The position numbers and the translations under genes are program-made. Below, in pieces: positions 28,170 to 38,655 of a stretch of DNA of 64,000 nucleotides. Under the pieces are notes generated by a model. It had not been told where the DNA came from and searched no databases. It was given only the letters and a program-made list of their open reading frames with translations. Origin of the DNA: Acholeplasmataceae bacterium. Its GTDB lineage: Bacteria > Bacillota_I > Bacilli_A > Acholeplasmatales > Acholeplasmataceae. The stretch lies in contig JAUVXD010000007.1 of NCBI GenBank assembly GCA_030603805.1, positions 1 to 64,000 of the forward strand, in the 5' to 3' direction. Numbering within the stretch: position 1 is the first letter of the stretch; each line of letters starts with the position of its first letter.

Positions 28170-28193
28170 AAAAGGGTCAATTATAGATGACCC
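28170..28193 (-). terminator. Terminator of the tandem GntR unit
   Basis: On the minus strand GGGTCA (28193-28188) and TGACCC (28179-28174) form a stem followed by six Ts, overlapping the 3' end of the gene. Confidence 0.7.
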
Positions 28194-28981
28194 AGATCTT
28201 GGTTGAGATGCACATAACTCGATTTGACTTCTTGAAGATTAACTTCTGTTTGAAATACATAATTATTAGAAGACCAACCCTCAGTATAATCCACTTGTTT
28301 ATGATGTTGATCATAAGTCAGTGATGTCACAAAATAACCTGCTGTACCTGTTCTAACTTTGAATATTGAAGATAAGTCTTTGGGAAGATTGACGACTGCG
28401 AGTAATCGTTTAGATTGACTTACAAACCGATGATAGTTGATTGCAAACACATCATAAATTGGTTTTTCATCTGTAAGAATGGCTTCAATATTTGGAAATA
28501 GTTCTAGTGGAATGTAGGTATCGAGCACAATAAGTGGTGTCTCGTTTCCATAATAAACACGTCTAATATAAAAGAGTGACTCTCCTTTTTTGAACTTGCT
28601 TTTTTGATGAAACTTTTGATCCACCTTAATAGTTGTTTGGATTAATGTCTTCATGGATGGCGTTAATCCCATCATTTTGATGGCATCATATAGTTTTATG
28701 AGCTCAGTGATAAAATTTGCAGTCAAGTCGTATTGATAAGCGAGATAAGATCCATCGTTAAAAATGACATAATTATCAAAAACAAGTTGTTGATAACTCT
28801 TAGTAACGACATCAGGATCGATCTCAAAAAATGCTGCTACTTCGTCTATTGCAGGAAGAGGTTCTTGATAATGAAAGACACGGTCAACAATGAGTGATTT
28901 AATCGCATTACTTAGTTGTAAATATAAAGGAAGAGATGATCTTCGATCGATTCTGATATGTGAAAATTTTTGAATGTTCAT
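28181..28981 (-). CDS. GntR-family regulator with UTRA domain (second copy)
   Basis: A 266-residue regulator: an N-terminal winged helix (about 10-75, RRSSLPLYLQLSNAIKSLI opening) and a C-terminal UTRA ligand domain (about 95-255). It overlaps the upstream GntR gene by 4 nt and is a divergent paralogue of it. HutC-type members respond to sugars or small acids. The recognition-helix region is less canonical than in its partner, so the two could form heterodimers. No obvious target operon lies beside it. Confidence 0.8.
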   Translation of the reverse strand: MNIQKFSHIRIDRRSSLPLYLQLSNAIKSLIVDRVFHYQEPLPAIDEVAAFFEIDPDVVTKSYQQLVFDNYVIFNDGSYLAYQYDLTANFITELIKLYDAIKMMGLTPSMKTLIQTTIKVDQKFHQKSKFKKGESLFYIRRVYYGNETPLIVLDTYIPLELFPNIEAILTDEKPIYDVFAINYHRFVSQSKRLLAVVNLPKDLSSIFKVRTGTAGYFVTSLTYDQHHKQVDYTEGWSSNNYVFQTEVNLQEVKSSYVHLNQDLGHL

Positions 28982-29715
28982 GGTAATATAACCTCGAATC
29001 TCGTGATTTCACTTGGATAAATCGAAACTAAGACAGCAAATGTCTCATGATTCTGATCGTAAATAAGGCTTTTCACATAATGAGCAGCAGCATCTTTTTC
29101 AACTTTAAGAAGTAATGCTTCATAACTCGATAAATTATAGGGCTTAAAGATATTCTTAATCGAGGCAATTCGCTTTTTACTGTATCGTTCTAAAACCTCG
29201 AGTGTGGTATGGTTCTCAATTTGATCGATATCCATATTTGGATACACAGATTTTGGTAGATAAAGCATTTGCAAAATGACAGGCTCATTGCGAAGATAAA
29301 TCACAATCTTGGCAATATGGCAATATTCAGTCTGGTTTAAATTAAAGATATCATGGATATCTGACTGATACTTAACGGTATCAAACAGAATCAGTTTTCG
29401 ACTTAATTCATATTTCGCGTTGGATGAAAATTGTTCGAGGTTATAAAAAAACTTCAAAGGGACAATATATTGTCTTCTTGTTGTTACAAAGGTGCCTTTG
29501 CCTTTAATTCTAGTAATTAAACCTTCCTTAACAAGCTCATCATAAGCATTTTTTGCAACAATCACGCTGATGTGAAATGCATCACAAATTTCAGCCTCTG
29601 TTGGAAGCTGATGCATATGGGTGATGGTGCCATTCATGATTGCAATCTTGATTGCATGCTTAAGTTGTAGATAAATCGGCTCTTTAGATGTTTTATCAAT
29701 TTGTATATATTCCAT
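28978..29715 (-). CDS. GntR-family regulator with UTRA domain (first copy)
   Basis: A 245-residue HutC-type regulator. The winged helix reads KEPIYLQLKHAIKIAI, then LPTEAEICDAFHISVIVAKNAYDELVKEGLITRIKGKGTF-type segments (residues about 40-80, with IKGKGTFV as the wing). The UTRA effector domain follows. It opens a two-gene regulator unit with a 4-nt overlap. Ligand unknown. Confidence 0.85.
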   Translation of the reverse strand: MEYIQIDKTSKEPIYLQLKHAIKIAIMNGTITHMHQLPTEAEICDAFHISVIVAKNAYDELVKEGLITRIKGKGTFVTTRRQYIVPLKFFYNLEQFSSNAKYELSRKLILFDTVKYQSDIHDIFNLNQTEYCHIAKIVIYLRNEPVILQMLYLPKSVYPNMDIDQIENHTTLEVLERYSKKRIASIKNIFKPYNLSSYEALLLKVEKDAAAHYVKSLIYDQNHETFAVLVSIYPSEITRFEVILP

Positions 29716-29790
29716 AGTATAACCTCATTTATATTATACAATCCTAAGATTGATTTCATATAAATAAACTTTATTTTTACGTGATGAAAC

Positions 29791-29811
29791 AAAAAAAGCC
29801 CGAAGGCTTTA
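29791..29811 (-). terminator. Intrinsic terminator of the FMN reductase gene
   Basis: On the minus strand AAAGCC-TTCG-GGCTTT is followed by Ts; the stop codon lies at its edge. Confidence 0.75.
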
Positions 29812-30357
29812 TGTTGATCTTGTTGATTTTAAAGCTTTACCCCAAGAGATGACTTGATCAAGTAATGTATTAAGATTTTGAGTATGTAACGATTGAGGCT
29901 TAAAAATTGACCAGTTTTCGAAATCTGTAAACATCGAGAGTGCGACGTGCGATCTCACATCCGCGATCATCAGTTCTCCTAAAATACCTCTTAAATGTTC
30001 TGCAGCACGTGCACCGCCGACTGAGCCATAGGATATAATACCTGCTGATTTATTGTTCCAAGGTTCTCTGGCTAAATCGAGTGCATTTTTAAGTGATGCA
30101 GGGATACTATGGTTATATTCCCCTGTGACAAAAATAAAAGCATCCAAAGATGCAAGTTTTTCTTGCCATAGCGTAATACCTTTGGTTTCTTCACTTTCAC
30201 CTAAAAGTGGTAAGTGATAATCTTTAATATCTACAATTTCGTAATGAGCATCATTTCTTGCTTCAGCAAACCCTAAAACCCATGCGCCTACCTGTGTGGA
30301 TACTCTACCTGTGCGCGTACTTCCGATGATAATACCAATATTCATTTTTTGATTCAT
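29809..30357 (-). CDS. NADPH-dependent FMN reductase family protein
   Basis: A 182-residue flavodoxin-fold reductase. GIIIGSTRTGRVSTQVGAW (residues 8-26) is the FMN phosphate loop, and TGEYNHSIPASLKNALD (about 100) the conserved flavin-binding segment. Members reduce FMN, quinones or azo compounds with NAD(P)H. AAGGAG lies 9 nt before the ATG. A perfect 18-bp palindrome sits 36 nt upstream, so the gene is probably repressor-controlled. Confidence 0.85.
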   Translation of the reverse strand: MNQKMNIGIIIGSTRTGRVSTQVGAWVLGFAEARNDAHYEIVDIKDYHLPLLGESEETKGITLWQEKLASLDAFIFVTGEYNHSIPASLKNALDLAREPWNNKSAGIISYGSVGGARAAEHLRGILGELMIADVRSHVALSMFTDFENWSIFKPQSLHTQNLNTLLDQVISWGKALKSTRST

Positions 30358-30453: not shown

Positions 30454-30482
30454 TTGCATTGATTGTGGTGAAGTGCTATAAT
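30454..30482 (+). promoter_or_regulatory. Promoter of the his operon
   Basis: TTGCAT (30454-30459), a 17-nt spacer with an extended TG, and TATAAT (30477-30482). Transcription would start near 30489. The sequence around the -10 (AGTGCTATAATG) recurs before nqrB. Confidence 0.8.
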
Positions 30483-30524
30483 GTTTATGACTTTACTATA
30501 ATAAAGCACTAAAGAGGTTGAACT

Positions 30525-30569
30525 ATGACTAAGAAATTTAATTTGAGACAAGGACATCATCATACATAA
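30525..30569 (+). CDS. hisL: His operon leader peptide
   Basis: A 14-codon ORF encoding MTKKFNLRQGHHHT with three consecutive CAT codons just before its end. AGAGG lies 7 nt before the ATG, and the ORF is 36 nt after the expected transcription start. A run of His codons ahead of a terminator and the his genes is the classical sign of ribosome-mediated attenuation: scarcity of charged tRNA-His stalls the ribosome here. It has nothing in common with T-box leaders. Confidence 0.85.
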   Translation: MTKKFNLRQGHHHT

Positions 30570-30574
30570 ATATG

Positions 30575-30678
30575 GGAAGCTTCTTTATAAGATGCAAGCC
30601 CTACTTTGTGTTATGGACTTGTATCACGACCCACGAAACATGGTTGGATAGATATAAGTCTATCTAACTTTTTATTTT
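30575..30678 (+). promoter_or_regulatory. Histidine attenuator with three exclusive structures
   Basis: Segment 1 (30591-30601) can pair with segment 2 (30615-30625) at 10 of 11 positions. Segment 2 (30613-30625) can instead pair with 30651-30663 over 13 continuous pairs, two of them wobble, as an antiterminator. The terminator itself is GTTGGATAGA (30643-30652) with TCTATCTAAC (30659-30668), a 6-nt loop, and TTTTTATTTT. The antiterminator takes bases from both terminator arms. A weaker pairing of 30575-30582 with 30596-30601 may hide segment 1 when the ribosome stalls at the His codons. The exact ribosome logic is inferred. Confidence 0.8.
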
Positions 30679-30689
30679 GGGAGGATATT

Positions 30690-31646
30690 ATGGAATTTTT
30701 ACTTATGAATGAAGAACTGGCTTATTACGAACTTAAGTATCAAATGAATAAAAAACTAGAACAACTTGCTATATCTCAAGGATATCAACTAATTGAACCT
30801 TCTTTTTTTGAAGATTATGATGACTTTATTCAAAGAAATAGGCGCATTAAAAAATCATCGATGGTTAAATTGATTGACCTCGATGGTTCAGTTTTAGTCT
30901 TAAGACCAGATATCACAACATCCATTATTAAACATGTGATTCCCAAGTATGAAAAAGGAGAACTTAAGCTCTTTTATCTTTCAACGATTTTTTCAAGAGG
31001 TAAAACAGGACGAATCGAGGAAAAGAAACAATTTGGCATTGAATACTTAGGGTGCCCAAATCCCTCATCTGACTTAGAAGTTATCACCATGGCGATTGAG
31101 CTTTTAAAGTCGTTTGACATGAATTTTGTTTTAGAAATATCAACGACGAAATTTTTATCAAAACTCATCTCAAATTTAAAGATCACTTTGGAAGAAGAAA
31201 ATCAATTAAAAAACATACTCTATACTAAAAATCAATACGAATTAGACCTATGGCTCCATAAGGTTAATTTAAAAAATGGGAATAAAGCATTATTGAAAGA
31301 CATCTTTAAACTTCAAGGTAACCCCAAAGATTTAGATCAAATTCTTAAAAACTATCATTTAGATGAGAAGATGACTCAAGCCATTGATGAACTTAAGATG
31401 CTATTTAATACACTTGAAGAAAAATCTTTAAGTGCCTATGCTCAAATCGATTTGACAGTGCTTTCAACTTATGACTATTATGATGGGTTTGTGTTTAAAG
31501 GATACGTTGAAAATATGTCAGAACCGATTTTAAGTGGTGGCAGATATGATCCCTTGACATTAGAACAAGGTAAAAAAGTACCAGCCATTGGATTTACACT
31601 TAACAGCAATGATTTACTTAAGGAGGTCATACGACGTGGGAAGTAA
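30690..31646 (+). CDS. hisZ: ATP phosphoribosyltransferase regulatory subunit
   Basis: A 318-residue protein with the class II aminoacyl-tRNA-synthetase fold: YQLIEPSFFEDYD, then VLRPDITTSI (motif 2-like) and SGGRYD near the C-terminus (motif 3-like). HisZ has no synthetase activity; it supports short HisG in the first step of histidine synthesis and carries feedback control. An open frame extends upstream to 30606 through the attenuator, but GGGAGG 5 nt before ATG 30690 fixes the start. First structural gene of the operon. Confidence 0.9.
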   Translation: MEFLLMNEELAYYELKYQMNKKLEQLAISQGYQLIEPSFFEDYDDFIQRNRRIKKSSMVKLIDLDGSVLVLRPDITTSIIKHVIPKYEKGELKLFYLSTIFSRGKTGRIEEKKQFGIEYLGCPNPSSDLEVITMAIELLKSFDMNFVLEISTTKFLSKLISNLKITLEEENQLKNILYTKNQYELDLWLHKVNLKNGNKALLKDIFKLQGNPKDLDQILKNYHLDEKMTQAIDELKMLFNTLEEKSLSAYAQIDLTVLSTYDYYDGFVFKGYVENMSEPILSGGRYDPLTLEQGKKVPAIGFTLNSNDLLKEVIRRGK

Positions 31647-32268
31647 AATGTTAACCATCGCACTTCCAAAAGGAAGACTAGGCAACCAAACACTCGATGT
31701 TCTTAAGAAAATTGGTTTAGGGGATGTCGTCATTGAAAGCAGCAGAAGGCTCATTTTTGAAGATGAACAAGAGATGATACGTTATATGCTTGTTAAACCA
31801 TCAGATGTCATAACCTATGTTGAAAAAGGTGTTGCAGATATCGGTGTGATTGGTAAAGATAGTATTTTAGAAGAAAATATGGATGTTTATGAACTGATGG
31901 ATTTAGGGTTTGGCAAATGTGTGTTTGCTATTGCAGGTAAAAAAGGAGAAATCATCCATCAAAGGGACGAAGTCTTAAGGGTAGCAACCAAATATCCAAA
32001 AATTGCTTTAGAATACTTTAGTTTAAGAAATCAGCCTATTGAAATTATCAAATTAAACGGATCAGTAGAATTGGCACCTTTGGTAGGACTATCTGATGTG
32101 ATTGTAGATATTGTAGAAACAGGATCAACGCTTAAGGCGAATGACTTAGATATTTTAGAAGAGATGTATCCGATTAGTGCAAAACTGATTGCTAATCGTG
32201 TCAGCTACCGTTTTAACTATGAACGCATTAAAGAGATAACTAGAAAACTAGAAACTATGAAAGGATAA
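31636..32268 (+). CDS. hisG: ATP phosphoribosyltransferase, short form
   Basis: A 210-residue catalytic subunit with TIALPKGRLG at the start and GSTLKAN near residue 160 (phosphoribosyl pyrophosphate site). It joins ATP and PRPP to give phosphoribosyl-ATP. It lacks the C-terminal regulatory domain of long HisG, consistent with the HisZ gene in front. The likely start is GTG 31636, 9 nt after GGAGG and overlapping hisZ by 11 nt; the ATG at 31648 is too far from the ribosome site. Confidence 0.9.
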   Translation: MGSKMLTIALPKGRLGNQTLDVLKKIGLGDVVIESSRRLIFEDEQEMIRYMLVKPSDVITYVEKGVADIGVIGKDSILEENMDVYELMDLGFGKCVFAIAGKKGEIIHQRDEVLRVATKYPKIALEYFSLRNQPIEIIKLNGSVELAPLVGLSDVIVDIVETGSTLKANDLDILEEMYPISAKLIANRVSYRFNYERIKEITRKLETMKG

Positions 32269-32272
32269 TCAT

Positions 32273-33550
32273 ATGATTCCAATTTATGATAAAAATGAAA
32301 ACTTATGGATTGAAAGACTTTTAAAAAGAAGTCAGTTTGATTTTACAGAGATCAACAAATCTGTTGAAGAGATTATTGCGAATGTTAAAAAATATGGCGA
32401 TGAAGCTGTAAACATGTATACGAAAACCTTTGATGGTATTGAAGTCAAATCATTTAAAGTCAGTGAAGATCAAATAAACCTTGCCATGAGTGAAGCTTCA
32501 CCAGATTTGATCAAATATCTGAAGCTTGCCATGCAAAATATTAAAGCTTACCATGAACTTCAAAAAATAGAGGATTTTGAGATCAAAAAAGATGACGGGA
32601 TTATTCTTGGACAACGTGTTAAACCGATTGAAACGGTTGGCATTTATGTACCTGGTGGAACTGCAGCTTATCCTTCAACCGTTTTAATGAATGCTGTTCC
32701 TGCAAAAATTGCAGGTGTCAAAAGACTAATCATGATCACACCACCTCAAAAAGATGGAACCATTAAAGCATCTTTGATGGTTGCAGCAAGACTTGCTGGG
32801 GTTGATGAAATCTATACTGTTGGTGGTGCTCAAGGGATTGCAGCACTCACTTTTGGAACAACTTCAATTCCTAAGGTAAATAAAATTGTTGGACCAGGCA
32901 ACATCTATGTAGCGATTGCGAAAAAACAAGTATCTGGTTATGTAGGAATTGATATGATTGCTGGACCTTCTGAAGTCTTGATTATTGCAGATGAAAAAGC
33001 AAATCCAAAGTATATTGCAGCAGATTTGATGGCACAAGCCGAACATGACAAGTTATCTGCAGCAATTTTATTAACCACATCAAAAGATATTGCAGGATCT
33101 GTCAAAAATGAGATAGAAAAAGAGATACAAACATTAGAAAGAAAAAGTATCATCGAACAATCATTAAATACATTTGGTGCCATCATGGTTTTAGATACGC
33201 TAGAAGAGGCAATCTCTATTTCAAATCAAATCGCACCTGAGCATTTAGAAATTTTGACAGAAGATCCATTTAAAGTTTTAAAGAGCATAGAAAATGCAGG
33301 ATCTATCTTTTTAGGTCTTTATACACCTGAGCCTGTAGGCGATTATTTTGCAGGTCCTAATCATACACTACCTACCAGTGGAACAGCAAAATTTTCTTCA
33401 GCACTATCAGTTTTAGATTTTGTTAAGAAGAGTTCATACACTTATTACACAAAAGATGCTTTAAAAAGCGCTAGTCAAGCGATTGTAGGGTTAGCTGAGG
33501 AAGAAAGATTAACTGCACATAAACGATCGATTCAAATCAGATTTGAGTAA
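32273..33550 (+). CDS. hisD: Histidinol dehydrogenase
   Basis: A 425-residue enzyme for the last two oxidations from histidinol to histidine. Family signatures are VGIYVPGGTAAYPSTVLMNA, GGAQGIAALTFGT, the zinc/substrate histidines in AEHDKLSAA and APEHLEI, and GPNHTLPTSG (about 365). Four nt after hisG. Full family length with all motifs intact. Confidence 0.95.
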   Translation: MIPIYDKNENLWIERLLKRSQFDFTEINKSVEEIIANVKKYGDEAVNMYTKTFDGIEVKSFKVSEDQINLAMSEASPDLIKYLKLAMQNIKAYHELQKIEDFEIKKDDGIILGQRVKPIETVGIYVPGGTAAYPSTVLMNAVPAKIAGVKRLIMITPPQKDGTIKASLMVAARLAGVDEIYTVGGAQGIAALTFGTTSIPKVNKIVGPGNIYVAIAKKQVSGYVGIDMIAGPSEVLIIADEKANPKYIAADLMAQAEHDKLSAAILLTTSKDIAGSVKNEIEKEIQTLERKSIIEQSLNTFGAIMVLDTLEEAISISNQIAPEHLEILTEDPFKVLKSIENAGSIFLGLYTPEPVGDYFAGPNHTLPTSGTAKFSSALSVLDFVKKSSYTYYTKDALKSASQAIVGLAEEERLTAHKRSIQIRFE

Positions 33551-33554
33551 ACTT

Positions 33555-34598
33555 ATGAAACCTAAAAAGAATATTGAAACACTGAAATCTTATCATGTCA
33601 ATGAATCAAAATATCATGTGAAGTTAGACGCAAATGAATCTAATAACTTCTTGTTTGAGCACTCAAGTTTAAGTGATTTAAAAGGGATAAACCTTTATCC
33701 AGACAATGAAGCATCACAACTCAAAGATAAAATAATTCAGTTATATCCGATTACAAAAAAGGAAGTCACTTTTGGAAACGGCTCAAGTGAACTTCTAGAT
33801 TTACTGGTTAAAAGCTATGTCAATCCCAAAGAAGTCATTTTATCTTTTGAACCTAGTTTTTCAATGTATCCCATTTATGCAGCACTCTATGATGCAACCT
33901 ATATTCCAGTACCTTCAGAAAAAGATTTTTCTTTATCCATAGATTTAATGATTTCTTATGCACATAAGTTTCATCCAAAACTGATTTTTATTTGTTCTCC
34001 AAACAATCCCACAGGATACTTAATTCCTAAAAAAGACATTGTAAAACTCATTTCAAGTACGGAAGCGATGGTCTTAGTAGATGAAGCTTATATGGAATTT
34101 TCAAGTGTTGAAAACTCACTTGTTTCAGAGATTAATCAGTATAAAAATCTTGTCATTGTTCGAACGTTTTCAAAGGCTTTCGGGCTTGCAGGCATTCGAC
34201 TGGGCTATATGATTGCATCAAAAGATATCATCGATGTGATCGAAAAAGTTAAAGCACCTTACGCGCTCAATACACTCTCACAAACCTTGGGATTAAAAGC
34301 ATTAGACAACTATGAACGTGTATTAAAACATGTGAGTGAAGTTAAAAAGCGAAGAGAAACTTTAAGTCAGTCACTTAAAGATTTAGGGTTTAAAGTTTAT
34401 CCTTCAGAAGGCAATTTTGTCTTTACTTATGTTACAATCCCAAACCTTGATGAAAAACTTATTCAAAAAGGAATCTTAATAAGAGCATTTAGCAATACCT
34501 TAAATAACTACTATAGAATCACTGTAGGTACAAGTGAGGCACATGACATTTTAATTCAAGCACTTAAGGAGATTAAAGATGAGAAGTTATCAGATTAA
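33555..34598 (+). CDS. hisC: Histidinol-phosphate aminotransferase
   Basis: A 347-residue PLP-dependent class I/II aminotransferase. VKLDANES near the start, SPNNPTG (about 150), VDEAYMEF and FSKAFGLAGIRLGY with the Schiff-base lysine are all present. It converts imidazole-acetol phosphate to histidinol phosphate using glutamate. Reading could begin at TTG 33543 inside hisD, but the ATG at 33555 is preferred; the ribosome site is weak, so coupling to hisD is likely. It overlaps hisB by 20 nt. Confidence 0.93.
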   Translation: MKPKKNIETLKSYHVNESKYHVKLDANESNNFLFEHSSLSDLKGINLYPDNEASQLKDKIIQLYPITKKEVTFGNGSSELLDLLVKSYVNPKEVILSFEPSFSMYPIYAALYDATYIPVPSEKDFSLSIDLMISYAHKFHPKLIFICSPNNPTGYLIPKKDIVKLISSTEAMVLVDEAYMEFSSVENSLVSEINQYKNLVIVRTFSKAFGLAGIRLGYMIASKDIIDVIEKVKAPYALNTLSQTLGLKALDNYERVLKHVSEVKKRRETLSQSLKDLGFKVYPSEGNFVFTYVTIPNLDEKLIQKGILIRAFSNTLNNYYRITVGTSEAHDILIQALKEIKDEKLSD

Positions 34599-35157
34599 AA
34601 GAAAAACCAAAGAAACCGATATTGAACTATCTTTAAAGATAGATGGCTCAAGAGACATTGATATTGATACAGGTGTTCCCTTTTTTGATCATATGCTGAC
34701 CCTTTTTGGATTTCATGCCGGGTTCGATTTAAATATTAAATGTCTTGGAGATTTACCTGTCGATGATCATCACACAGTAGAAGATGTCGGTATTGCTTTA
34801 GGTCAAGCTTATTATCAAGCTTTAGGTCAGTTTAAAGGGATTAATCGATATGGGATGTGCTATGTGCCGATGGATGAAGCACTGGCTCGAGCTGTCGTCG
34901 ATGTTTCAAATAGACCTTATCTTTTTTATAAAGCTACATATCAAAGAATTGAAATTGGTGGATTATCGTTAGAAAATGTCTTAGAGTTTTTTAGAGCATT
35001 TGTGAATGAAGCAAGAATCAATTTGCATCTTGAAGCACTTTATGGTCAAAATGATCACCATAAAGTAGAGTCTTTATTTAAGGCATTTGCTCGTGCGATT
35101 AAAGAAGCGTCGATGATTGTATCAAATGACTTACCTTCAACGAAAGGAATGTTATGA
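34579..35157 (+). CDS. hisB: Imidazoleglycerol-phosphate dehydratase
   Basis: A 192-residue manganese enzyme, the monofunctional form without a phosphatase domain. The metal motifs FFDHMLTLFGFHAG, DDHHTVEDVGI and NDHHKVESLFKA (about 165) are complete. It dehydrates imidazoleglycerol phosphate. AAGGAG lies 7 nt before the ATG. Confidence 0.95.
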   Translation: MRSYQIKRKTKETDIELSLKIDGSRDIDIDTGVPFFDHMLTLFGFHAGFDLNIKCLGDLPVDDHHTVEDVGIALGQAYYQALGQFKGINRYGMCYVPMDEALARAVVDVSNRPYLFYKATYQRIEIGGLSLENVLEFFRAFVNEARINLHLEALYGQNDHHKVESLFKAFARAIKEASMIVSNDLPSTKGML

Positions 35158-35762
35158 TGAATGTGATTTTAGACTATGATTCAGGAAATCTTGATTCGGT
35201 CTTACGTGGGTTTGAAAAGGCTGGAATTCCTTCAATCATTTCCAAAGATCCAAATATGATTAAAGAAGCGAAATCTTTAGTGCTTCCTGGTGTTGGTGCT
35301 TTTGGTGATGCCATGGCTGCACTTAAAAGATCTGGACTCATTCCATCTATTTTAGATCACGTCAATAGAGGGAAGTATTTATTTGGCATATGTTTAGGGA
35401 TGCAACTTCTTTATGAAGTAGGTTATGAGCACGGTAGACATGAGGGACTAGGCTTACTCAAGGGTGAAATCAAATACCTAGATATTTCCTTAAAGGTTCC
35501 TCAGATGGGATGGAATACGCTTAAGTTCTTTGATATCAATCATCCGATTTTAAAATATATCAAGCCAGATGATTACGTGTATTTTGTTCACTCTTATTAT
35601 GTGAACTCAAGTTTAGAGGAACTGATTGCTTATACGTCGTATGAAAAACTTATTCCTGCAATCGTAGGTTCTAACCATATCATTGCAACCCAGTTCCACC
35701 CAGAAAAAAGTGGACAAACAGGAGAAAATATTCTTAAAGCCTATAAGGAGATGATTTTGTGA
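35154..35762 (+). CDS. hisH: Imidazole glycerol phosphate synthase glutaminase subunit
   Basis: A 202-residue class I glutamine amidotransferase. The nucleophile is in FGICLGMQLL (Cys about 80), and the His-Glu pair in TQFHPEKSG (about 185). It supplies ammonia to HisF. It overlaps hisB by 4 nt and ends in TGA within the start codon of hisA. Confidence 0.95.
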   Translation: MMNVILDYDSGNLDSVLRGFEKAGIPSIISKDPNMIKEAKSLVLPGVGAFGDAMAALKRSGLIPSILDHVNRGKYLFGICLGMQLLYEVGYEHGRHEGLGLLKGEIKYLDISLKVPQMGWNTLKFFDINHPILKYIKPDDYVYFVHSYYVNSSLEELIAYTSYEKLIPAIVGSNHIIATQFHPEKSGQTGENILKAYKEMIL

Positions 35763-36490
35763 TTATACTACCCGCCATAGATTTAAAAGATAACCTATGT
35801 GTAAGGCTTACACAAGGTGACTTTTCAAATCAAAAAATATATGCATCAAACCCGTTAGATATTGCTTATAAATTTGAAGAAGATGGCGCGACATATTTAC
35901 ACGTCATTGATCTTAATGGTGCTCAAGATGAAAACTTAGTCAACTTAAAAACAATTCAAATATTCAAAGAAAAACTTAAAACGCCATTTCAAGTCGGTGG
36001 CGGTATACGCTCCTTAGAAACAGCAAAACGTGTTTTAGATGCCGGGGCGTCTCGGATCATTTTAGGTACTGTTGCAATTGAAAACAAAGCGCTTCTTCAA
36101 AGATTGATTCAAGTATACGGAAGTCAAATTGTTGTTTCAATCGATGCCAGAAAAAGAAAAGTCGCGATTAAAGGATGGACTCAAGATACAGAAGTTGATG
36201 TTGTTGAGCTTTGTAAAGAGTTAGAGTCTTTCGGTTTAGAAACGATTGTTTATACCGACATTGAAAAGGATGGCATGCTTAAAGGTCCTAATTTTGAAGA
36301 TTATCAACTGCTTGTCAAAAGTACCAGGATGAAGATTATTGCATCTGGTGGTATCACCACCTATGATGATTTAATGAAGTTAAATGAAATAGGGCTTTAT
36401 GGTGCCATTGTTGGGAAAGCAATCTATGAAAATAAAATTGATTTAAAGGAGGCTATCCGATGCTTGCAAAACGTATCATCCCCTGTTTAG
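35759..36490 (+). CDS. hisA: ProFAR isomerase
   Basis: A 243-residue beta/alpha barrel. [18 protein letters not shown] carries the first catalytic aspartate, [11 protein letters not shown] and IASGGITT the phosphate loops, and [14 protein letters not shown] the second aspartate. It opens the ring of ProFAR to PRFAR. The start is GTG 35759, 8 nt after AAGGAG; overlaps hisH by 4 nt and hisF by 31 nt. Confidence 0.95.
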
Positions 36491-37218
36491 ATGTTAAAAA
36501 TGGTCGTGTTGTTAAGGGAAAAAAATTTCTAGGCCTTGAGGATGTGAATGATCCAGCAACTTTAGGAAAATACTATAGCGATGAAGGCGCAGATGAGCTT
36601 GTATTTTATGATATTACCGCATCATCAGATGAACGAAAAATATCTTTAGAGTTTGTTGAGCGTGTTGCTAAAGAAATCAATATTCCCTTTTGTGTTGGTG
36701 GAGGTATCAACTCCATTGAGGACTTCACAGCAATCTTACGAAAAGGTGCAGATAAAGTTTCAATCAACTCTGCAGCTGTACTTAACCCATCACTCATTAC
36801 AGAAGCTTCTAAAAAGTTTGGTGCTCAGTGTGTTGTCTTATCTATCGATGCTAAGAAAAATGATGAGGGTTCATGGAGTGTCTATATCAAAGGTGGCAGA
36901 GAAAAGACAAATTTGGATGCCATCTTATGGGCAATCGAAGGTGTTCGACTGGGTGCTGGTGAACTTGTCATTAACTCGATAGATGAAGATGGCATGAAAC
37001 AAGGCTATGACTTGGAACTACTTAAACGAATTACCCAAAGTGTGACTGTACCTGTGATTGCATCAGGTGGTGCTGGATCAATTAAACATTTTTATCAAGC
37101 TATTGATCATGCAAATGTCGATGGTATCCTGGCAGCATCTGTTTTTCATTATAAAGAAATACAAATCAAAGACTTAAAGAAAGCCTTGAAAAATCAAGGC
37201 ATTCCCATTAGATTGTGA
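36460..37218 (+). CDS. hisF: Imidazole glycerol phosphate synthase cyclase subunit
   Basis: A 252-residue beta/alpha barrel related to His[17 protein letters not shown] has the catalytic Asp11, FCVGGGIN and ASGGAGS are the phosphate loops, and [13 protein letters not shown] the second catalytic aspartate. It forms imidazoleglycerol phosphate and AICAR with HisH. GGAGG precedes the ATG inside hisA. Confidence 0.95.
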
Positions 37219-37225
37219 GGGTTTA

Positions 37226-37849
37226 ATGATGATAGAAAAGATCAAGTTTAATCAAGAAGGGCTCATTCCAGTAGTTGTTCAAGATGATCAGTCAAATGAA
37301 GTTTTAATGCTTGCTTATATGAACGAAGAAGCATTAAAAAAAACAATTACAGAAAAAAGAGCGTACTATTTTAGTCGCTCAAGAAATGAATTATGGAAGA
37401 AGGGGGAAACCTCAGGAAACGTTCAATTTGTGAAATCATTATTTTATGATTGCGATGCGGATACACTGTTATTAAAAGTGGAACAAGTCGGTGTTGCATG
37501 CCACACAGGAAAGATGAGTTGTTTTCATAATCCACTCATAGAAGGGGTAAAGACTTCGTCAAATCCCTTGGTCTTAAAAGAGATTTATGCTACAATCGAA
37601 GAGAGAAAAAGAAACCCAATTGAAGGCTCGTATACCAATTATTTATTCACAAAAGGGATTGATAAGATCCTAAAAAAAGTCGGAGAAGAAACAGCAGAAG
37701 TCATTATTGCAGCTAAAAACAATTCAAAGTCTGAACTTACTTACGAGCTAAGTGATCTTGTTTATCACAGCCTTGTCTTAATGGTTAACCAAGGTGTTTC
37801 TCTTTCAGAAATATATGAAGAACTCTCAAGGAGACAGCAAAAGAAATGA
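37226..37849 (+). CDS. hisI: Bifunctional PR-AMP cyclohydrolase / PR-ATP pyrophosphatase
   Basis: A 207-residue fused HisI-HisE protein. The HisI part (about 1-112) has [18 protein letters not shown] and the zinc site DCDADTLLL...GVACHTG. The HisE part (about 115-205) has [17 protein letters not shown] and ELSDLVYH. It performs the second and third steps of the pathway. ATGATG start after GAGGG; overlaps hisJ by 4 nt. Confidence 0.95.
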
Positions 37850-38655
37850 ATCCCAAAATCATTGATTCCCACATGCATTCCAACTATTCACCGGATGCAG
37901 ATCCAAAAGCAACATTTGAAGCCTATATCGAAAAAGCGAAACGTCTGGGTATCATGAGTCTCGTTTTTACCGATCATGTCGATTTTGACAGTCCTGCAGA
38001 CATATTTACAGAAATGATTGATTATGATGTTTATGTCAAGCATTTAAATGAAGTTAAAAAGACATCAAATGTCGAACTCCTTTTGGGTGTTGAGATGGGT
38101 TATCAGCCACATTTGCACCAACGAATCGATGAATTTTTAAGCACATACCCTTTTGATTTTGTCCTCCTGTCAATGCATATTGGAGATGGATTAGATTTTT
38201 ATAATGGAGATTTCTTTAAGGGCAAAACTCAAGTTGAAGCTTATCAAAGATATTTCGAAATTGTTTTGGATTCTGTTAGAAATTATCAAAATTATGATGT
38301 CTATGGTCATATCGACTATATCATCAGATATGGCGGATACGAAAATAGACGCTACCTTTATGACACTCATAAAGAAACCATTCATGCAATCTTAAAAGAA
38401 ATCATCAAACATGGAAAAGGTATTGAAATTAATACGTCTGGTTTAAGATATGGATTAGGATTAGTTCATCCTTATTTAGAACTATTAAAAGATTATAAAG
38501 CACTGGGTGGAAAGATTGTTACCTTTGGTTCAGATGCTCATTTTGTGAAAGATTATTATGCAGGATTTAATGAAAGCATAGAGCTTCTTAAAGATGCTGG
38601 ATTTGAGTATGTTACGGTTTATCGCAATCGGAAACCTGAGTTTATTAAGATATAA
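37846..38655 (+). CDS. hisJ: Histidinol-phosphatase, PHP family
   Basis: A 269-residue PHP-domain phosphatase. [13 protein letters not shown] gives the first metal pair, VFTDHVDF the next, GHIDYI and TFGSDAHFV the last. It removes phosphate from histidinol phosphate, filling the one step that hisB lacks here. This makes the ten-protein set for PRPP to histidine complete in one unit. Confidence 0.92.

Follow-up and report, generated by a model that had tools for sequence, protein, structure and literature searches.

A probable ribosome-mediated histidine attenuator, layered with a predicted HisR operator, upstream of hisZ in an Acholeplasmataceae genome

In the enteric his leader, the A:B stem is a local hairpin formed by the first two segments. 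The same attenuator uses an extra fast-forming hairpin that limits basal read-through (PMC1183508), and the weaker attenuator of trp has been tied to its repressor (Elf and Ehrenberg, PMC1183508). Among Firmicutes, Ashniev et al. (2022, PMC9413887) put forward candidate His-leader attenuators from the Bacillus cereus group, from Peptostreptococcaceae/Lutispora and from Erysipelotrichales, and His-leader attenuation is therefore already known as a kind in that phylum. The original prediction for the locus described here had treated an attenuator as unexpected, T-box or repressor control being the usual arrangement. The surprise does not stand in view of the 2022 proposals. No T-box is found here, and a predicted HisR operator and a hisR gene are present.

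The locus lies in a window of 64,000 nucleotides (the whole stretch of DNA that was analysed) from a 2.06 Mb genome (G000), in which the named relatives of HisZ are Acholeplasmataceae and Tenericutes MAGs. Its his operon is, with high probability, controlled by a ribosome-mediated, His-sensing transcription attenuator layered with a HisR repressor. The Rfam family of the enteric leader (RF00514, His_leader) gave no match at the locus, either at the gathering threshold or at E values up to 10.

The leader and the his operon in the window

The genes 3' of the leader are arranged in the order hisZ-G-D-C-B-H-A-F-IE, together with a HisJ-type phosphatase. TIGR00443 was the top family for hisZ (E 1.2e-66), yet the match is under the curated cut-off, and the match to PF13393 exceeds its cut-off. 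The features of the locus are as follows.

30454-30482, plus strand: promoter, with a -35-like TTGCAT (30454-30459), a spacer of 17 bases and TATAAT (30477-30482) preceded by TG (extended -10)
30489-30508, no strand assigned: predicted HisR operator GACTTTACTATAATAAAGCA, just 3' of the -10 and across the expected transcription start
30511-30517, plus strand: leader ribosome-binding site AAAGAGG, read from the sequence; a G-rich ribosome site precedes most homologous leaders
30525-30569, plus strand: leader peptide gene MTKKFNLRQGHHHT, 14 aa, ATG at 30525 and TAA at 30567-30569
30546-30555, plus strand: segment S0 AGACAAGGAC, predicted partner of S3 on the ribosome-free leader
30555-30563, plus strand: regulatory codons CAT CAT CAT, read from the sequence
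30574-30586, plus strand: segment S1 GGGAAGCTTCTTT, which pairs with S2 and is partly under a ribosome sitting at the stop codon
30589-30601, plus strand: segment S2 AAGATGCAAGCCC, partner of S1 or S3
30613-30630, plus strand: segment S3 ATGGACTTGTATCACGAC, which pairs with S0, S2 or S4
30642-30663, plus strand: segment S4, comprising the left arm of the terminator, its loop and the first bases of its right arm; with S3 it makes the antiterminator
30642-30678, plus strand: intrinsic terminator, a 12-pair stem (30642-30669) and a U-rich tract up to 30678
30690-31646, plus strand: hisZ, the first structural gene (TIGR00443, PF13393), with a GGGAGG ribosome site directly 3' of the terminator
31588-38655, plus strand: operon stretch after the hisZ start, named by NCBIfam, with hisF named via its reading frame

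The promoter was absent from the list produced by the consensus scan because its -35 matches at 3/6 positions only; by-eye reading finds TTGCAT/A-N17-TATAAT in several relatives as well. On the minus strand adjoining the his promoter, positions 28181-30357 hold two GntR-like regulator ORFs and an NADPH-dependent FMN-reductase-like ORF, named by eye from their translations only.

The intrinsic terminator sits between the leader ORF and hisZ. Only two ATG-started ORFs of at most 40 aa with HHH occur in the 64 kb, and the leader ORF is the only one of the two to have both a terminator and a his operon downstream. The original prediction had proposed a 14-residue peptide with three His codons, which is present, and three helices, all of which are found at the coordinates it gave (30591-30601 with 30615-30625, 30613-30625 with 30651-30663, and 30643-30652 with 30659-30668). 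Its labels are one off, its 1:2 being 2:3 here and its 2:3 being 3:4. The mechanism requires a 1:2 helix, which is what it had called a weak extra pairing at 30575-30601; in the window genome this helix is weak (-7.9 kcal/mol), and most relatives have a strong one, reaching -19.6 kcal/mol.

Recurrence of the leader across the class

A survey of the family identified a his leader of this type 5' of hisZ in 16/88 genomes, and all 16 Acholeplasmataceae leaders with this structure encode a short His-run peptide, ranging from HHH to HHHHHH. A covariance model (R1) was built from S2 through the terminator of the 16 relatives, with the leader peptide left out; the model begins at S2 because the MAFFT alignment A1, which included S1, put the S1 of the window in the wrong place. 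Searched against the 160 genomes of the order, R1 gave one strong site in each of those 16 (E 1e-14 to 4e-7) and in none of the others. In the class it gave 23 further sites in 20 genomes from families f16, f12 and f24 (E 2.6e-10 to 2.1e-4), bringing the total with the leader to 36 genomes of the class. Every one of the 23 class-level sites is followed by hisZ, and 22 of them carry at least three His within six codons. Random regions do so in about 3% of cases, a figure that is somewhat too high as the pool includes true leaders. Among all homologous leaders, 40/41 have such a run. R1 finds His-run leaders even though the peptide was left out of it; therefore the structure predicts the peptide.

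Among 395 class genomes, no strong R1 matches were found outside f1, f16, f12 and f24. Four matches at E of about 1e-3 or above were checked (L102, L106, L108 and L109), none of which lies at his genes, and no his leader was seen at the weak order-level matches L054-L059. One genome from the same family as the window, G024, has a his operon without a leader of this kind. Five his operons of family f2, from the same order (L086, L087, L088, L090 and L092), have no attenuator of this kind and no Rfam T-box, and their operator match is never above 9/14.

Some of the loci have features of their own. At L029/L050 (G077), hisZ is broken by many in-frame stops, through frameshift, decay or assembly error, and the attenuator upstream is intact. 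At L065 (G216, about 1597-2240), roughly 600 nt beginning with GTGCCGGGCAAGCATAACAACTAGGTGATG separate the terminator from hisZ; this stretch is insertion-like and perhaps group-II-intron-like. The HisZ of L063 (G417, f24) nests with those of G030 and G042 from the family of the window, which suggests horizontal transfer of the operon together with its attenuator and operator.

Alternative pairings and ribosome position

The leader has six alternating segments, S0 to S5, and its terminator is the pairing 4:5. We compared native pairings with between-species swaps in 30 representative leaders, a test that corrects for relatedness incompletely. The native 1:2, 2:3, 3:4 and 4:5 helices were stabler than all 20,000 swaps, and at most 40 of 20,000 swaps were equally good when the leaders were split inside and outside the family. 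The native form of the control pairings (S1:S3, S2:S4, S0:S2, S0:S4, S1:S4 and S0:S1) failed to beat all swaps. The compensatory changes in homologous leaders to which the original prediction had looked are there in alignment A3, which was fitted to its structure and holds three opposite-strand self-matches. In the 2:3 helix and the terminator stem together, 17/21 pairs are changed on both sides compared with 7.7 in shuffles, and the double-sided changes number 121 versus 25 in shuffles. Compensation in the 3:4 helix can be read directly from L015 (GGCTTGAATC with GATTCAAGC), L029 (GTATCCGTC with GACGGATAT) and L012 (GACTTGTG with CATAGGTC). Altogether, as judged by sequence comparison, the leader contains the ORF and the alternative helices 1:2, 2:3, 3:4 and 4:5. 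Peptide, alternative hairpins and terminator are kept with covariation across 36 genomes, which upholds the earlier reading of the locus as a ribosome-mediated His attenuator.

S0, just 5' of the His codons, changes together with S3, as in the pairs CAAGTCC/GGACTTG, CAAGCAC/GTGCTTG and ACACAAGCAC/GTGCTTGTGT. Overall, none of the 20,000 swaps equalled native S0:S3; when each genus was represented by a single leader, the median z was 2.8, and 1% of shuffles were as good (median fraction 0.01). The native register was paired in 78% of cells, in comparison with 22-49% for slid registers. In three VHVH leaders, S0 was placed manually at the second His. About one third of leaders have a poor S0:S3, and the window has a partial one (AGACAAGGAC), with some 8 S0:S3 pairs expected in the ribosome-free fold of the full-length RNA. 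An S0:S1 pairing was also considered as the counterpart of the enteric A:B stem; here the native form was no better than the swaps, and S0:S3 is preferred. We regard the pairing of S0 with S3 as probable and moderately supported by the sequence data.

S0 falls within Gln-Val/Ala codons, so that a constraint on the peptide could conserve it. S0 might accordingly be kept purely as peptide or codon context (Gln-Val-His), without pairing to S3, the untranslated leader being handled in some other way. This explanation would accommodate the leaders in which S0 is missing (L053, L051, L052, L048, L070, L096, L097, L099 and L100). Against it stand the covariation of S0 with S3, of which ACACAAGCAC with GTGCTTGTGT is an example, and the preference for the native register, and we consider it possible and rather doubtful.

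With S0 pairing to S3, the leader would work as follows. As RNA polymerase moves through the leader, a ribosome would translate MTKKFNLRQGHHHT, and S3, with three possible partners, would be the deciding segment. When no ribosome is present, S0 would pair with S3 around hairpin 1:2 and terminator 4:5 would form. When His-tRNA is ample, the ribosome at the stop codon would cover S1, allowing S2:S3 and again the terminator. When His-tRNA is scarce, the ribosome would wait on the His codons with S0 covered and S1 free, giving 1:2 and S3:S4; with S3:S4 formed there would be no terminator and the operon would be transcribed. Read-through would thus require a ribosome over S0 but not over S1, i.e., one stalled at the His codons.

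The front of a stalled ribosome lies about 12 nt beyond the first base of its A-site codon. S1 starts 16-27 nt past the first His codon in 40/41 leaders and between -17 and +8 nt relative to the stop codon in 41/41. S1 is therefore beyond the stalled front, yet under a terminating ribosome, which gives the three-state logic of no ribosome, ribosome at the stop codon and stalled ribosome. These distances also bear on a simpler arrangement, a three-hairpin attenuator of the trp type with 30591-30601 masked by the stalled ribosome itself. The three helices of the original prediction, taken alone, do resemble 1:2, 2:3 and 3:4 of trp. The His codons end at 30563, however, 28 nt short of the 30591 arm and out of reach of the ribosome; in relatives the distance from stop codon to S2 is 11-42 nt, with S1 at the stop codon. 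As the ribosome cannot reach the 30591 arm and the S1:S2 helix covaries, another alternating segment is needed, and the simpler arrangement is very unlikely.

Folding of transcripts ended at S3 left S3 free in 3/41 leaders without a ribosome, in 13/41 with a ribosome stalled at the first His codon and in none of the 41 once the ribosome sat on the stop codon. For the leader of the window, equilibrium folding with masked ribosomes did not reproduce the switch: the full-length RNA favoured the terminator in every ribosome state, and a shorter RNA favoured 3:4 in every state. The leader region, whose folding the original prediction had proposed as a check, is more stable than 200/200 dinucleotide shuffles (z = -3.3). 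Equilibrium folding was rejected as a sufficient explanation and, since it is indiscriminate for the window, kinetics must be invoked. For the attenuator with S0:S3 we infer the ribosome positions and co-transcriptional kinetics, as well as the histidine response of the leader.

HisR, tandem attenuators and relation to known systems

The published HisR consensus is cacTTTAnnnnnnTAAAgtg (PMC9413887), and the site at 30489-30508 agrees with it at 8/8 core positions and 11/14 overall. In itself, a score of 11/14 is no rarity: seven such sites occur in the window, so that the weight rests on position and on comparison across genomes. We compared 36 genomes, scoring hisR as present where a TrpR-family gene was above the cut-off. 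The best site upstream of the attenuator scored at least 11 in 14/15 genomes with hisR and in 0/21 without it (Fisher p = 4e-9), the hisR label changing about five times on the HisZ tree. The hisR gene of G000 (G000:C35:71730-71981) matches PF01371 (E 4.6e-31) and TIGR02531 (E 2.8e-38; YerC/YecD, HisR type). In these sequences, predicted operator and hisR are concordant, and operator, hisR and attenuator occur together in 14/36 genomes. At the initiation layer, HisR, a TrpR-family protein encoded elsewhere in the genome, would bind the start-site palindrome when histidine is plentiful, and we predict dual control by repressor and attenuator as in E. coli trp. Operator-like sites without an attenuator are present in G024, G085 and G143.

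It could be argued that HisR at the promoter is the sole control and that the leader is either vestigial or a partial terminator that acts constitutively, as both the operator and the hisR gene are present and G024, with an operator and no attenuator, implies that HisR alone can suffice. The elements of the leader are nevertheless kept with covariation, including in 21 genomes without hisR, and this proposal appears highly improbable. A T-box, a riboswitch or a translational switch sequestering the SD sequence can be dismissed with near certainty: the genome has 12 T-boxes and his genes are under T-boxes in other Firmicutes (PMC9413887), but the Rfam search gave no T-box (RF00230) in the window and, at the locus, neither a T-box nor any other family at E up to 10 save chance-level unrelated matches, while the hisZ ribosome site is outside the stem and a U tract follows the stem.

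The relatives add a second form of the leader. Two attenuators in series precede hisZ in seven genomes of two genera (g69 and g136), all without hisR. In the tandem leaders (L061, L062, L066, L068, L069, L093 and L094) each attenuator has its own His leader peptide and its own terminator. The mean total of His codons was 3.7 with the operator and 5.5 without it (p = 0.002, relatedness ignored); for the first attenuator alone the difference was not significant (p = 0.18). The direction, with fewer His codons where there is an operator, agrees with Elf and Ehrenberg (PMC1183508).

On balance, we lean towards a his attenuator family found in a number of families within a single class, where S3 has three partners and read-through needs a ribosome exactly at the His codons, atop a repeatedly lost HisR and with a second, tandem attenuator in some hisR-less lineages. 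If this is true, the family would allow the proposal of Elf and Ehrenberg (PMC1183508), by which an attenuator under dual control may be weaker than one acting alone, to be tested in nature. The leaders described here carry predicted ribosome-mediated His attenuation into Acholeplasmataceae and the families next to them, and the genome of the window keeps 12 T-boxes. The 36 naturally varied leaders, with or without repressor and with one or two attenuators, make it testable how attenuators compensate for loss of the repressor and how an untranslated leader stays off.

The attenuator shares with that of Salmonella and E. coli his (RF00514) a His-run peptide, alternating helices, a terminator and read-through only with a ribosome stalled in the control region. 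It differs in the number of regulatory His codons, 3-6 in most single leaders here against the 7 cited for his (PMC1183508), and in the added HisR operator. In addition, its off state without a ribosome apparently depends on long-range S0:S3 pairing around 1:2 rather than on a local hairpin of the enteric style. The candidates of Ashniev et al. (PMC9413887), compared by description, likewise occur in Firmicutes and have 3-5 consecutive His codons followed by attenuator, antiterminator and terminator hairpins before the his operon. They were reported from groups without HisR, whereas 14/36 genomes here have both, and Acholeplasmataceae and the other families considered here are not among the lineages reported. 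A repressor-attenuator combination for his was not reported in that Firmicutes survey (PMC9413887). What we consider new is the lineage-wide family, the S0:S3 topology, the coexistence with HisR and the tandem His attenuators, none of which was found in the open-access papers searched.

E. coli trp likewise joins a TrpR-family repressor, acting at the start site, to ribosome-mediated attenuation, but for another amino acid; in the present system many relatives have lost hisR, and some of these carry two attenuators. Salmonella mgtCBR (PMC3641672) resembles the tandem his leaders in having a pair of leader ORFs and a pair of attenuators one after the other. Its ORFs are described as two different short ones within one leader, whereas both attenuators of the tandem his leaders read histidine and each has its own terminator.
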